Assembly (NCBI RefSeq): GCF_001580045.1
Contig: NZ_LSZP01000042.1
Coordinates: 1 to 64,000, forward strand
Length of the DNA stretch: 64,000 nucleotides
Direction of reading: 5' to 3'
From: Cephaloticoccus capnophilus
GTDB taxonomy: Bacteria > Verrucomicrobiota > Verrucomicrobiia > Opitutales > Opitutaceae
Shown here piece after piece: positions 58,311 through 64,000 of this stretch (positions are counted from its first letter, which is position 1; every line of letters begins with the position of its first letter). The translations under genes were made by a program, and so were the position numbers. Below the pieces are notes generated by a model that saw only the letters and a program-made list of their open reading frames with translations, was not told the origin of the DNA and ran no database searches.

Positions 58311-61300
58311 TTATTGGCAGGCTTCGCATTCCTCGCCGTTGCGCATCGCCTCAATCGAGCAGGCGAGTTTCTCGGCGGCGCTGTAAACGCGCGGAGCAGC
58401 ACCGGCTCCACCGACTCCATTAACCGAGCTAGTCGCCCCAACGGGTGAGCCTACGGTCGCCCCAGCACCGACGCTTCCGGCAGCTCCCGCCACTGCGCCG
58501 CGGACTTCCTTTTTCACCGACACAGTTGCCTTCTCGATAGTCGAGGCCGCGGCACTGCGCAGGTAATAGGTCGTCTTGAGCCCAGTGTGCCAAGCGTGCC
58601 GATACATGTGGCTAAGGATCTTCAGGTCGGGCGTCTTTAGCCAGAGATTCACCGACTGGGATTGGTCGATCCACTTTTGGCGGCGCGCGGCAGCTTCGAT
58701 TATCCAGCGATACTCGATGTCGAAGGCAGTGCGGTATTTTTCCTTCAGGTCGGCAGGCAGGCCGGGGATGTCGCCGAGCTCGCCGTCGTAATACTTTAAG
58801 TGGTCGATCATCTGCCGGTTCCACAGCCCGCGCGCCTTGAGGTCGCGCACGAGGAAGGGGTTTAGCACGATGAACTCGCCCGAGAGGTTGCTCTTAACGA
58901 AGAGGTTTTTGTAGGTGGGCTCGATGCAGGGCGAGGTCGCCGTGATGTTCGAGATGGTCGCAGTGGGGGCGATCGCGAGCACGTTACTGTTGCGCATGCC
59001 TTGCTTGGCGATTTTCGCCCGCAGCGGCTCCCAATCCATCAAGCCGCCGCGCGGCACTTTGATTTGTAGGCCGCGCTCGCGCTCGAGCAGGTCGAGCGTG
59101 TCTTGCGGCAGGAGCCCGCGATCCCACTTCGACCCTTTGTAGCTGGAGTAGGTGCCGCGCTCGGCGGCGAGGTCGCTGGAGGCTTCGTAAGCGTAATAGG
59201 CGATCGCCTCCATCGCTTCGTCGTTGAACTCGACGGCGGCCTCCGAGGCGAAGGCGACGCCTTTTAGGTAGAGCGCATTGGCCAAGCCCATAACGCCCAT
59301 CCCGATCGGGCGGTGCCGCTGGTTGGAGCGCGCGGCGGCCTCCGTCGGGTAGAAGTTGATGTCGATGACGTTGTCGAGCGCGCGAATGGCGATGCGGATG
59401 GTCTCGCGCAGCTTTGCGTGGTCGAGCCCGCCATCGGGCAGCAGGTGGTTTTCGAGGATGATCGAGCCGAGGTTGCAGACGGCGGTCTCGTCGTTGCTCG
59501 TGTTAAGCGTAATCTCGGTGCACAGGTTCGAGGAGTGGACGACGCCGACGTGGTCTTGCGGCGAGCGCAAGTTGCATGGGTCTTTGAAGGTAATCCACGG
59601 ATGCCCCGTCTCGAAGAGCATCGAGAGTATCCGCTTCCATAGGTCGATGGCTTGGATTTTTTGACCGTAGATTTTCCCCGCCTCGGCGAGCTGCTCGTAG
59701 CGCAGGTAGGCGTCCTCAAACGCTTTCCCGTAAAGGTCATGCAGGTCGGGCACTTCGTTTGAGCGGAAGAGTGTCCACGATTCGCGCGCCTCCATCCGCT
59801 TCATGAACAGGTCGGGGATCCAGTTGGCCGTGTTCATGTCGTGAGTGCGGCGGCGGTCGTCGCCGGTGTTTTTGCGCAGTTCGAGGAACTCGAAGATATC
59901 GTTGTGCCAAGACTCGAGGTAGGCGCAGCCGGAGCCCTTGCGCTTACCGCCTTGGTTCACGGCGACGAGTTGGTCGTTGTGCAACTTGAGGAAGGGGATG
60001 ACGCCCTGCGACTCACCGTTTGTCCCGCCGATGTAGGCCCCCGTGCCGCGCACCGCCGTCCAAGAACCGCCGAGCCCGCCCGCCCATTTCGATAAAAACG
60101 CGTTTTCCGCGATACCGCGCAGCATGATGCCCTCAATCGAATCGTCCACATAGTAGAGGTAGCAGGAGCTGAGCTGTGAGTGCAGCGTGCCGGAGTTAAA
60201 GAGCGTGGGCGTCGAGCTGCAAAACCGACGGCCCTTATAGAGCCCGTAGAGCGCGGCGACCTTCGCCTCACGGGTTTCGGTCGGCTCGTCGAGCATCAAC
60301 CCCATCGCGACGCGCATCCAGAAAAACTGCGGCGTCTCGATGCGTCGCGCAGGCGTGCTCGTTTTATCGACGATGAGGTAGCGGTCGTAGAGCGTCTGGA
60401 TGCCGAGGAAGTCGAACTCTAGGTCGGCACTCGGGTCGAGCGCCGCCGCGAGCGCACCGAGGTCGTAGTCGAGCAGCCGGGGGTTGAGCCGCTTGATCGC
60501 TACGCCGTGCTCTAAGTAACGCTTAAACGCACGTTGGTGCGCCGTCTTTAGCGCGCCGATCCCATCGCGCAAAATGTCCCAGCCGAGCACCTCCTCGTAA
60601 AGGTAGCTGAGCTGGATGCGGCCCGCGAACTTCGCGAAATCGGCGTCCTGCTCGATGAGCGTCTTCGAGTTTAGGACGATGGTCGCGTCCAAGTCCTTTT
60701 GCGTAATCTGGTCGTAAACCGCGCGGCGCAGCTCGGCCTCGATCTCCTCCGCACTGAGGCACAGGTCGAGCCCGAGGCTCGCAAACTCGATCCGCTTTTT
60801 GAGGTCAGCACCGTCCCAAAAGACGTTCGATCCGTCCGGCTTTTTGACCATGACGAGCGTTTCCTGTCCGGCAGGAATCGTAGTCGGCACGCCATCCGCA
60901 TCCGTGCTCGCAGCACTCTCGCCCGTCGCAAGCCCAAGCCCCACGCCGTCGCCCGTATCCGCGCCGATACTACCGGCTGCACTCGCCGCGCCGCTCGCCG
61001 CAGCGCGCAGCGCAGCGGCACGCTCGCGAAACTGGATATACGCCTTGGCCACCTTGTAGTGGCCGGACTTCATCAACTCCTCTTCGACGATGTCCTGTAC
61101 CTCCTCGATGTGGATGAGGGCTTGCGACGACGCCTTCACGCGCTCGGTCACAGCGCGCGTAATCGCAGCGGCGGGCGCAGAGTCGGTTTCCAGCGAGAGG
61201 AAGGTCTTGCGCAGCGCGAGCTCCACCTTTTGCGCCCGCCAAGGCACGACTTGGTTATTGCGGCGGATGACGCGCAGGCCGCTGTTTGTCACAGCGGGAC

Positions 61301-61772
61301 TGGCCGCCGGACGGTCGATTAGCGAGAGCTTCCGCGAGCGGTTGAGCAGCAGGCTTTTCGCCACAGAATACTCGTCGTTATCGACAAGCGTTTTTTCGAT
61401 AAGCTCGTAAAGCTCGGCCAGCGTCAGCTTCAGCGGCCCTTGTTCGCGAGCGAGCGAAGCGAGGTTCTCCGAGAGCTCGCGGCAAATCCGCCGCACCCAC
61501 GCACGACTCTCGTCGTTGAAAATGTCTTTCTGGCCTTTGGCGAGGCGGACGTTGGTCAGTGCCTTGCCGAGTGTGTCAGCGACCTCCGCCAGCTCGAAAG
61601 GCTCCTCGCCATGCGGGCAAAGCAGCGTCACCGGCGGCGGCGGGAGCGAAAGCTCGGCGGCGGCCTCGCCCCCCTCCAAAGCCTCGCGCCACGGATAGTG
61701 CGGCTTTTGCTCAACGGGAGTGTGGACGGTTTTCTTGAGGGCGAGGTCGTATTCGAGAGTAGAAGTAGTCAT
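58311..61772 (-). CDS. nrdA: Ribonucleotide reductase class I alpha subunit
   Basis: Catalytic subunit (1153 residues) that reduces ribonucleotides to deoxyribonucleotides. N-terminal ATP-cone-type regions: one degenerate (about 45-135), one clear (VIRRNNQVVPWRAQKVELAL, about 165-250) and a third-like region (about 310-390). Active site: Cys in LSSCYLYYVDD near 535, NLCTE near 747 (Asn, Cys, Glu), Cys in AVCNLGSI near 765, Tyr-Tyr in TTYYLRS near 1068 and shuttle Cys 1149 and 1152 at the tail (CEACQ). A Gly/Ala-rich linker lies before the tail. Long, multi-cone alpha subunits also occur in Chlamydia. Two beta genes follow upstream on the map. Confidence 0.96.
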   Translation of the reverse strand: MTTSTLEYDLALKKTVHTPVEQKPHYPWREALEGGEAAAELSLPPPPVTLLCPHGEEPFELAEVADTLGKALTNVRLAKGQKDIFNDESRAWVRRICRELSENLASLAREQGPLKLTLAELYELIEKTLVDNDEYSVAKSLLLNRSRKLSLIDRPAASPAVTNSGLRVIRRNNQVVPWRAQKVELALRKTFLSLETDSAPAAAITRAVTERVKASSQALIHIEEVQDIVEEELMKSGHYKVAKAYIQFRERAAALRAAASGAASAAGSIGADTGDGVGLGLATGESAASTDADGVPTTIPAGQETLVMVKKPDGSNVFWDGADLKKRIEFASLGLDLCLSAEEIEAELRRAVYDQITQKDLDATIVLNSKTLIEQDADFAKFAGRIQLSYLYEEVLGWDILRDGIGALKTAHQRAFKRYLEHGVAIKRLNPRLLDYDLGALAAALDPSADLEFDFLGIQTLYDRYLIVDKTSTPARRIETPQFFWMRVAMGLMLDEPTETREAKVAALYGLYKGRRFCSSTPTLFNSGTLHSQLSSCYLYYVDDSIEGIMLRGIAENAFLSKWAGGLGGSWTAVRGTGAYIGGTNGESQGVIPFLKLHNDQLVAVNQGGKRKGSGCAYLESWHNDIFEFLELRKNTGDDRRRTHDMNTANWIPDLFMKRMEARESWTLFRSNEVPDLHDLYGKAFEDAYLRYEQLAEAGKIYGQKIQAIDLWKRILSMLFETGHPWITFKDPCNLRSPQDHVGVVHSSNLCTEITLNTSNDETAVCNLGSIILENHLLPDGGLDHAKLRETIRIAIRALDNVIDINFYPTEAAARSNQRHRPIGMGVMGLANALYLKGVAFASEAAVEFNDEAMEAIAYYAYEASSDLAAERGTYSSYKGSKWDRGLLPQDTLDLLERERGLQIKVPRGGLMDWEPLRAKIAKQGMRNSNVLAIAPTATISNITATSPCIEPTYKNLFVKSNLSGEFIVLNPFLVRDLKARGLWNRQMIDHLKYYDGELGDIPGLPADLKEKYRTAFDIEYRWIIEAAARRQKWIDQSQSVNLWLKTPDLKILSHMYRHAWHTGLKTTYYLRSAAASTIEKATVSVKKEVRGAVAGAAGSVGAGATVGSPVGATSSVNGVGGAGAAPRVYSAAEKLACSIEAMRNGEECEACQ

Positions 61773-61891: not shown

Positions 61892-62992
61892 TTAGAGGTC
61901 GTCGTCGCTGGATTGGTTGAGCGACGCCGTTTTTTGGTAGTCGTGGGAGCCACCATCTGCTGCGGCAGCAAGCCCGAGTAATTCATCGAGCCAGGGAAGC
62001 GGGTTCTGCGCCTTCGCGCCGCCGCCAGCGGAGAGCGAAGCGAGGTTACAGCCTTCGAGGCGGCGGTCGCCGACGGTGTCGAGGTAAGTGAGCAAGTCGT
62101 CGAGTCTGAGCCCCGCCGCCGCGACTGCATCGGCCCCGAGCCCATCGCGCACGAAGCGTTTTTCTTCCGCGATCGCCGTGGCCATCAGCCCGCGCAACTC
62201 CTCGCGAAACGCCTCCGTCCACAATTCGCCGTTTTCCTTAATCAGCTCCAAAAACAGGTTTCGGAAAAACTCAATGTGCTGGGCTTCGTCGCGCAGCGTG
62301 TTCCTAAAAATCTGGCCGACTGCCGGAAACTTCCCCTGCGCATAGAGCGAGAGCACAAGCGCATGCAGCCCAAAGAATTTCGTGCCCTCCACGCATTGGC
62401 TAAAGAGGAAAATCGTCTTGGCGAAAAGCTGCTTGTTTTCGTGCAGCGTGAGATCGAGCCCGCGGTGAAAGTCCGGCGAGATCTGCTCCGAAAGTTGCGG
62501 TGCGGGCCGACCCGCCGCACAGGCAGCACGAAACCGCGCCTCGCAGGTGTGCGGGTTTAGCCCCAGCCCGCCAGTCATATGCACGAGCGAATCGGTGTGG
62601 ACGTTTTCCTCGTGCGTGTGCCGCCCAAGGACGAGCTTTAGCTCCGGCGCAGTCACGAGCTCTCGCGTCGCATAACGCACCGCATAGCCATCAAAGGCCT
62701 CCGCCGCTGCGAAGTAGCCCACGCCCAGCCGCACGATGTCGCGCTCCGCGTCACTCACCACGCGCACATCACGCCAGTGCGCCACATCCCGCGCCATCGC
62801 GTGCTCTTCCGCGTCCCAGTGGTTCGCCTTCATCGTGCGATACAGGTCGTAAGCCCACTGATATTTGAGCGGCAGCAGGTTAAAGGTCATCGTCTCGTAG
62901 CCATTGATAACCCGTTTCCCCATAAAAACTTGCTCTGCTTTGGCTTGGTCGAGGGCAAAGGAACGCGGGCCGATTTGGAAAACTTTTTGCAT
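61892..62992 (-). CDS. nrdB: Ribonucleotide reductase beta subunit, class Ic-like (copy 1)
   Basis: Dimetal subunit of 366 residues. Predicted metal ligands are Glu98, Glu129, His132, Glu202, Glu236 and His239 (FAAAEAF, HEENVH, CVEGTKF, RDEAQHIEF). The residue that is the radical Tyr in most enzymes is Leu136. The ligand spacing equals that of the Chlamydia trachomatis class Ic protein (89, 120, 123, 193, 227, 230 with Phe127; numbering from memory) shifted by 9 at every position. A Mn/Fe cofactor with no tyrosyl radical is thus likely. The tail SDDDL would bind NrdA. Confidence 0.92.
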   Translation of the reverse strand: MQKVFQIGPRSFALDQAKAEQVFMGKRVINGYETMTFNLLPLKYQWAYDLYRTMKANHWDAEEHAMARDVAHWRDVRVVSDAERDIVRLGVGYFAAAEAFDGYAVRYATRELVTAPELKLVLGRHTHEENVHTDSLVHMTGGLGLNPHTCEARFRAACAAGRPAPQLSEQISPDFHRGLDLTLHENKQLFAKTIFLFSQCVEGTKFFGLHALVLSLYAQGKFPAVGQIFRNTLRDEAQHIEFFRNLFLELIKENGELWTEAFREELRGLMATAIAEEKRFVRDGLGADAVAAAGLRLDDLLTYLDTVGDRRLEGCNLASLSAGGGAKAQNPLPWLDELLGLAAAADGGSHDYQKTASLNQSSDDDL

Positions 62993-63129
62993 TGGGCGAA
63001 AGGGGGAAAAGGCGTATGAAGCGGGAAAGTGGAACAGGTCGGGGGCGAGCGGTGCGTAGGTGGAGAGCGATTTTCCGTGTGGGCGAGGAGGGCGGGAGGC
63101 GGGAGGGCGCGCGGTGAGCAGGAAAAACC

Positions 63130-64000
63130 TCAGAGATCGTCGTCACTCTCGAAGCTCAGCGAGGATGCCTTCTGGTATTCGGTAACGCGCCCTTCGAAGA
63201 AGTTTTGCTCCTTCTTGATATCCATCATCTCGGCCAACCACGGCAGCGGATTTTGGATTTCCGTTTTCGAAAACGGCTCCAAGCCACAACTCTCCAGCCG
63301 CCGGTCGGCGATATAGTCGATGTAGGTCAGGAAATCCTCCGCCACCAGCCCCACCGCGTTCATCGGCAGGCAGTCGCGGATGAAGTCCTTCTCCAGCGTA
63401 ACCGCCTCGTGCATCATCTCGCGCAGCTCCTCGCGAAGCTCGGGCGTCCAGATCACGCGGTTCTCCTCCACCAAGTCCATGAACAAGTTACGGTAGTTTT
63501 CGATGTGGTTCGACTCGTCGCGCAGCGTGTAGCGAAACATCTGCCCCACCCCGGGAAACTTGTTCTGCCGGTAAAGCGAAAGGATCATCCCAAACAGCCC
63601 GTAAAACTGCGTGCCCTCCATGCACTGGCCAAAGAGAAACATGTTTTTCGCGTAGAGCGCGATGTTCTCCGGCTGCGTGAAATCGAGCCCCACGCGCAAG
63701 TCCTTAGAGTTACGCGTCACGAACTCGTTCTTGCGCACAATCGTCGGGATGTCGTCGAACATCGCCTCGCACTCGTGCGGGTTAATCCCCAGCGACGCGA
63801 TCATGTACAGCAGCGAGTCCGCATGGATGTTCTCCTCGTGCGCGTGGCGGCTCGTCACCAACCTCAACTCCGGCGCGCTAATAAGCTGGCGCGTAACGTG
63901 TTGCACATTATCGCCCACAATCCCCTCCGCCGCCGAAAAGTAGCCCAAGCCCATCCGAATAATCCAGCGGTCAACGTCTGTCACCGCCAGCGGATCGCGC
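63130..64000 (-). CDS. Ribonucleotide reductase beta subunit, class Ic-like (copy 2, cut by window end)
   Basis: Partial gene; the N-terminus lies beyond 64000, and the GTG at 63984 is internal (RDPLAVTDVDRWI reads across it). Ligand pattern: SAAEGIV, HEENIH, CMEGTQF and RDESNHIEN, with Leu at the radical-Tyr place (ADSLLY), as in copy 1. The tail is also SDDDL. It shares roughly half its residues with copy 1, so the two are old paralogues rather than a fresh duplication, and may form a mixed beta dimer or serve different conditions. Confidence 0.9.
   Translation of the reverse strand, partial: RDPLAVTDVDRWIIRMGLGYFSAAEGIVGDNVQHVTRQLISAPELRLVTSRHAHEENIHADSLLYMIASLGINPHECEAMFDDIPTIVRKNEFVTRNSKDLRVGLDFTQPENIALYAKNMFLFGQCMEGTQFYGLFGMILSLYRQNKFPGVGQMFRYTLRDESNHIENYRNLFMDLVEENRVIWTPELREELREMMHEAVTLEKDFIRDCLPMNAVGLVAEDFLTYIDYIADRRLESCGLEPFSKTEIQNPLPWLAEMMDIKKEQNFFEGRVTEYQKASSLSFESDDDL

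Follow-up and report, generated by a model that had tools for sequence, protein, structure and literature searches.

Why would a gut bacterium keep two different genes for the beta subunit (NrdB, R2) of class I ribonucleotide reductase, neither of them coding for the radical tyrosine, in front of a single gene for the alpha subunit? The question is raised by one end of the window, as the whole 64,000-nucleotide stretch analysed here is called, which corresponds to positions 1-64000 of a 66,013-base contig (C42) in the 2.09 Mb genome of a turtle-ant gut bacterium. Two tandem NrdB genes next to one alpha had been described in the initial annotation, and this arrangement was borne out: both genes are full-length on the contig and lie ahead of nrdA, with nrdB copy 1 (B1), nrdB copy 2 (B2) and nrdA transcribed in this order from the minus strand.

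63130..64000, minus strand: B1, nrdB copy 1, a class Ic-like R2 of the Leu type; it opens the operon and is clipped by the window end
61892..62992, minus strand: B2, nrdB copy 2, a diverged tandem paralog of 366 aa between B1 and nrdA
58311..61772, minus strand: nrdA, coding for an alpha subunit of 1153 aa that has an ATP-cone, a Tyr dyad and a CxxC at the C-terminus

The range 61892-64000 originally assigned to the pair takes in B1 only partly; the rest of B1 lies beyond the window, and on the contig the gene is complete (about C42:63130-64323; 397 aa counted from the MSQPS start). B1 and B2 are 50% identical to each other and both are included in Pfam PF00268, and against NCBIfam NF005550 (R2 equivalog, curated cut-off 309) B1 scores 311.9 and B2 175.5. 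As read from the locus, NrdA is the single alpha partner serving both betas. In most family members examined (loci L005 and L039 included), a palindrome, ACCACATCCTGTTGTGGT, is located about 125 nt upstream of nrdB. Here it stands before B1, at about 64400-64500 of C42 and just beyond the window, and no comparable palindrome was seen in the region upstream of B2, which indicates that B1 and B2 are probably co-transcribed. In Cephaloticoccus a second palindrome, CCACATCTTGTGG, lies 29 nt upstream of ACCACATCCTGTTGTGGT; by their resemblance both are possibly NrdR boxes.

Alignment to the R2 of Chlamydia trachomatis (Ct), whose numbering is used below unless a B2 position is given, confirmed the six metal ligands proposed for both betas. 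They follow the pattern E, ExxH, E, ExxH, with Glu as the first ligand in both proteins, and align with Ct E89, E120, H123, E193, E227 and H230. The ligand spacings are 31/3/70/34/3 in Ct and in B2 and 31/3/69/34/3 in B1; the statement that copy 1 has the Chlamydia spacing is therefore correct for B2, the first copy in window coordinates, but not for B1, in which one gap is 69 instead of 70. The Ct F127 site, seven residues after the second Glu, is occupied by Leu in both proteins.

63811..63813, minus strand: B1 Leu codon (ctg) at the radical-tyrosine site (Ct F127)
62585..62587, minus strand: B2 Leu136 codon (ctc) at the radical-tyrosine site

No Tyr is shifted onto the radical site in either copy, and the next Tyr (Ct Y129) is kept in B1 and replaced by His in B2, so the Tyr-less reading stands.

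To what extent this Leu is peculiar to the pair can be judged from the R2s of related genomes. R2 sequences were gathered from 200 family genomes and 240 phylum genomes, and the distinct ones were aligned, in a sample that leans to the window's own family. Leu was found at the radical site of 70 aligned R2s besides the two B2s, invariably with Glu as ligand 1 and Tyr at 222 (70/70) and in the same surroundings as in B1 and B2; the replacement is thus confirmed and is not a chance occurrence. Phe occupies the site in seven R2s, C. trachomatis among them, all of which have Glu as ligand 1 and Y222, and the 20 R2s with Tyr at this site all have Asp as ligand 1. Judged from this sample, one R2 lineage across Verrucomicrobiota has Leu/Glu as its standard state, and the Leu-type, class Ic-like R2, which is not represented by the Chlamydia paradigm, is the commonest class I beta among the Verrucomicrobiota sampled. 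The earlier remark that Leu variants are known from surveys agrees with a passage in PMC3824934, citing Hogbom 2010, where R2c proteins with Leu, Ile and Val instead of Phe are documented. That Leu sets the B1-B2 pair apart is ruled out by its universal presence in Leu-type relatives, and being standard across the lineage it is uninformative on whether the two betas form a heterodimer.

The class Ic-like character initially proposed for the two betas was upheld by their Glu first ligand and by their closest structure, the class Ic R2 of C. trachomatis (PDB 1syy/4d8g), which likewise has Glu as first ligand and no radical Tyr. This protein was the best match of both in a sequence search of the PDB, near full length, with E values of 1.6e-77 for B1 and 4e-37 for B2. 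It was also the best fold match of the B2 AlphaFold model (Z 26.0, rmsd 3.2 over 273 residues), which, like the model of B1 from Cephaloticoccus primus, was built from a four-sequence alignment (mean pLDDT 63 and 66, respectively) and speaks for the fold only, not for the active site or the dimer interface. Class Ic is usually defined by the Phe/Glu pairing (PMC8463856), and B1, with Leu at the site, is therefore best named a Leu-type, class Ic-like R2. By its residues B1 is an ordinary member of this type: in addition to Glu as first ligand, the five further ligands and the lack of a radical-site Tyr, it shares with the Ct protein W51 and Y222 of the activation relay, D226 and the C-terminal Y338. 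With the other Leu-type R2s of Verrucomicrobiota it has in common the Leu/Glu pairing, the position of nrdB before nrdA and the upstream palindromic box; it differs from them in having diverged on its own stem, most near the N-terminus, and in being accompanied by B2. Chlamydia, too, has a single R2 gene and Phe127, in contrast to the tandem pair with Leu described here. The new element is B2; Leu itself was already known.

Most genomes of the family (n = 200 searched) contain one R2, directly before nrdA where this was looked at, and these single R2s share about 57% identity with B2 and 73-79% with B1; for the single R2s of other species in the genus, identity to B1 is 76-79%. Among the genomes searched, B2 was found only in the window genome and in the ant-gut congener C. 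primus CAG34 (G045), which was also the sole match elsewhere in a contig search with B2. This distribution makes it most likely that the window belongs to C. capnophilus, the second named species from ant guts. No other tandem pair resembling B1-B2 was detected in the 240 phylum genomes. Seven genomes with more than one R2 match (G005, G022, G096, G165, G194, G076 and G393) proved to contain no such pair; their matches are distant R2s, fragmentary genes or copies located on different contigs. In G096 (C32:10628-11601) and G194 (C70:9245-10264) the R2 is split into overlapping frames, with an internal TGA as well in G194, and either sequencing-error frameshifts or true gene decay would account for this.

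In a tree of 45 R2s, B1 and B2 were both placed within the family clade (SH-aLRT 99), and in a more careful tree of 41 R2s the sequences nearest to B2 by path were those of same-genus species; a clade uniting B1 and B2 was not rejected by the AU test (p = 0.46). Based on these sequence comparisons, B2 originated by tandem duplication inside the family, in the ant-gut Cephaloticoccus lineage. Acquisition by horizontal transfer was rejected, the closest relatives of B2 being R2s of its own family; in plasmid and phage records identity to B2 was below 60%, and about 25-33% among the matches listed. The stem branch of B2 is very long, and that of B1 is also longer than those of its neighbours. NrdA was accelerated less than B1, its barrel being 85-90% identical to those of congeners versus 76-80% for B1. 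Between the window species and C. primus, dN/dS (NG86) is 0.109 for B2, 0.119 for B1 and 0.096 for the N-terminal part of NrdA; NG86 and LWL85 were the methods applied, and conservation is judged here on one species pair, as only two B2 sequences exist in the sample. The long stem together with the low present dN/dS points to a burst of divergence followed by strong purifying selection on B2. A pseudogene is ruled out by this dN/dS and by intact frames in two species.

What was changed and what was kept in B2 can be read residue by residue. Both B2s differ at 42 of the 110 positions common to Ct and 30 non-B2 R2s of the family, second-shell residues included, and both retain the six ligands, W51, D226, F197, the C-terminal Tyr (Y338) and the DDDL end. 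Three of the changes are located as follows.

62363..62365, minus strand: B2 His210 in place of Phe (Ct F201), which is Phe in 70/70 Leu-type relatives
62300..62302, minus strand: B2 Asn231 at the site of Ct Y222, the electron relay of activation, which is Tyr in 70/70 Leu-type relatives
61892..61978, minus strand: B2 C-terminal tail, with the NFFE.R segment deleted or replaced and the Tyr (Ct Y338) and SSDDDL end retained

The replacements of Y222 by Asn and of F201 by His occur in the B2 of both species, and further changes are Y129 to His and Y198 to Phe or Cys. In the activation of the Ct class Ic enzyme, Y222 is reported to act with W51 in reducing Mn(IV)/Fe(IV) by one electron, and it is said to be conserved among R2c (PMC4118035). 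B2 thus has the six ligands, the Tyr-less radical site and the C-terminal Tyr of class Ic and departs from it at Y222. The NFFE.R segment just before Y338 is retained by essentially all relatives. Six residues before the tail Tyr, nearly all Leu-type relatives have Glu, the window B2 has Asp and the C. primus B2 a non-acidic residue; this position would correspond to E350 of E. coli, which together with Y356 is essential in the beta tail of that species (PMC8463856). The Asp of the window B2 is, in these terms, a mild change, and the acid is gone only in C. primus.

The two copies have diverged in complementary parts. At 259 positions invariant in 28 other family R2s, 18 are changed in B1 alone, 77 in B2 alone and seven in both. 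Within the N-terminal 58 residues there are six B1-only changes and one B2-only change, versus 12 and 76 elsewhere (Fisher p = 1.3e-4, with the boundary at residue 58 picked after the divergence profile had been seen and two species only represented). B2 has the ancestral start and N-terminus, and B1 the ancestral core and tail. In class I enzymes the alpha-beta complex involves elements of the beta N-terminus as well as its C-terminus (PMC8463856), which makes the diverged regions plausible places for splitting one protein's job in two. This pattern can also be reconciled with a separation into two homodimers.

In yeast (Rnr2/Rnr4) and Plasmodium (PfR2/PfR4), too, R2 is duplicated, with rapid divergence and loss of functional residues in one copy, and the two copies form beta-beta' with one alpha (PMC3824934); unlike B1 and B2, they belong to Tyr-radical eukaryotic enzymes. 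Class I holoenzymes also engage one half at a time (PMC8463856). A heterodimer of B1 and B2 fits best with these two observations, and our preferred, still tentative reading (probability about 0.42) is that B1-B2 on NrdA is the working form, B1 acting as radical supplier and B2 as a non-firing structural or regulatory half. The heterodimerisation, the division of labour and the Mn/Fe chemistry of the two proteins are what we infer from their residues and from these analogies. B1 would store the oxidising equivalent on its metal pair and not on a tyrosine. B2 retains the R2 fold and the six ligands, would dock on NrdA by its tail, and would be ill-suited to activating its own cofactor (no Y222) and to gating radical transfer (no NFFE.R or E332), so that a modified, non-firing partner would sit beside the radical generator. 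For the initial suggestion that two Tyr-less betas form a heterodimer, the argument from Leu fell away, while the idea of two different betas gained independent, if indirect, support from the purifying selection on B2, its losses in activation and tail gating, its retained ligands and tail, and the complementary divergence. The stricter form, an obligate class Ic beta-beta' in which the half-at-a-time asymmetry is fixed, B1 firing and the B2 site holding, metallating or gating the complex while B2 itself cannot complete activation or radical transfer, is doubtful. What speaks most against B2 being purely structural is that all six ligands are retained, and B2 may still assemble a cofactor. Yeast Rnr4, a non-catalytic partner, has lost its metal ligands, and B2, with all six present, differs from it in this respect.

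The chief rival is an independent B2 homodimer that serves the same NrdA under other conditions (low oxygen, peroxide activation or a different metal supply) through a Y222-free activation. In its favour, B2 has the six ligands together with W51, D226, a C-terminal Tyr and the DDDL tail and is under purifying selection equal to that on B1, and the Ct R2c can be activated with H2O2 too (PMC8463856); but the loss of Y222, F201 and the NFFE.R segment, features present in essentially all relatives, and the lack of a palindrome-like element in front of B2 make this explanation unlikely. A role outside ribonucleotide reduction, as an R2-derived metal-dependent oxidase or regulator comparable to R2lox, would account for the many altered positions common to Ct and the family R2s, yet B2 sits inside the nrdBA operon and retains two features missing from R2lox, the C-terminal Tyr and the tail for docking on NrdA, and its best score with an R2lox model is 22.9 against a cut-off of 194, which renders such a role improbable.

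The fast divergence on the stem branch could be taken for that of a redundant or decaying duplicate, of dosage or neutral value and without a special role. This was already disfavoured by the intact frame in two species, the dN/dS of about 0.11 and the retained ligands and tail, and is very unlikely. That B1 and B2 are two ordinary class Ic betas and their Leu the sign of a novel type of radical site has the occurrence of Leu in both copies in its favour; given that Leu with Glu as ligand 1 is standard in 70 relatives and that Leu, Ile and Val are on record for R2c in the passage quoted above, this explanation is scarcely credible. At the radical site of the class O ferritin-like betas of marine phages and bacteria, Phe or Leu is likewise present (PMC9531940), but these betas are much shorter than B1 and B2 and have no alpha-docking extension. 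If the B1-B2 heterodimer is true, the pair would represent a naturally occurring separation of functions within a Tyr-less class I reductase, in which one half holds the activation relay and the tail gate and the other half the metal site only. The roles of Y222, of the tail segment and of half-of-sites behaviour, for which mutants are at present the main approach, could then be tested directly.

Several minor observations were made on the surroundings of this system. The reductases of the window genome comprise a single class I/II-type alpha and a single class III NrdD, the latter at L047 (G000:C44:40923-42737) and not found in five congeners tested. C. primus has a second class I nrdAB with an R2 of the Tyr/Asp type and an E. 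coli-like motif (L106, G045:C68:47500-52500); this Tyr-type enzyme is absent from the window genome, and conversely no NrdD match was obtained in C. primus. A highly divergent Leu-type R2 (L100, G243:C24) has His in place of Y129, as B2 does, and retains Y222. In the N-terminal region of NrdA (residues 1-430), a canonical ATP-cone at 167-250 is flanked by two segments that by eye resemble diverged ATP-cones, and a low-complexity Gly/Ala linker is also present.
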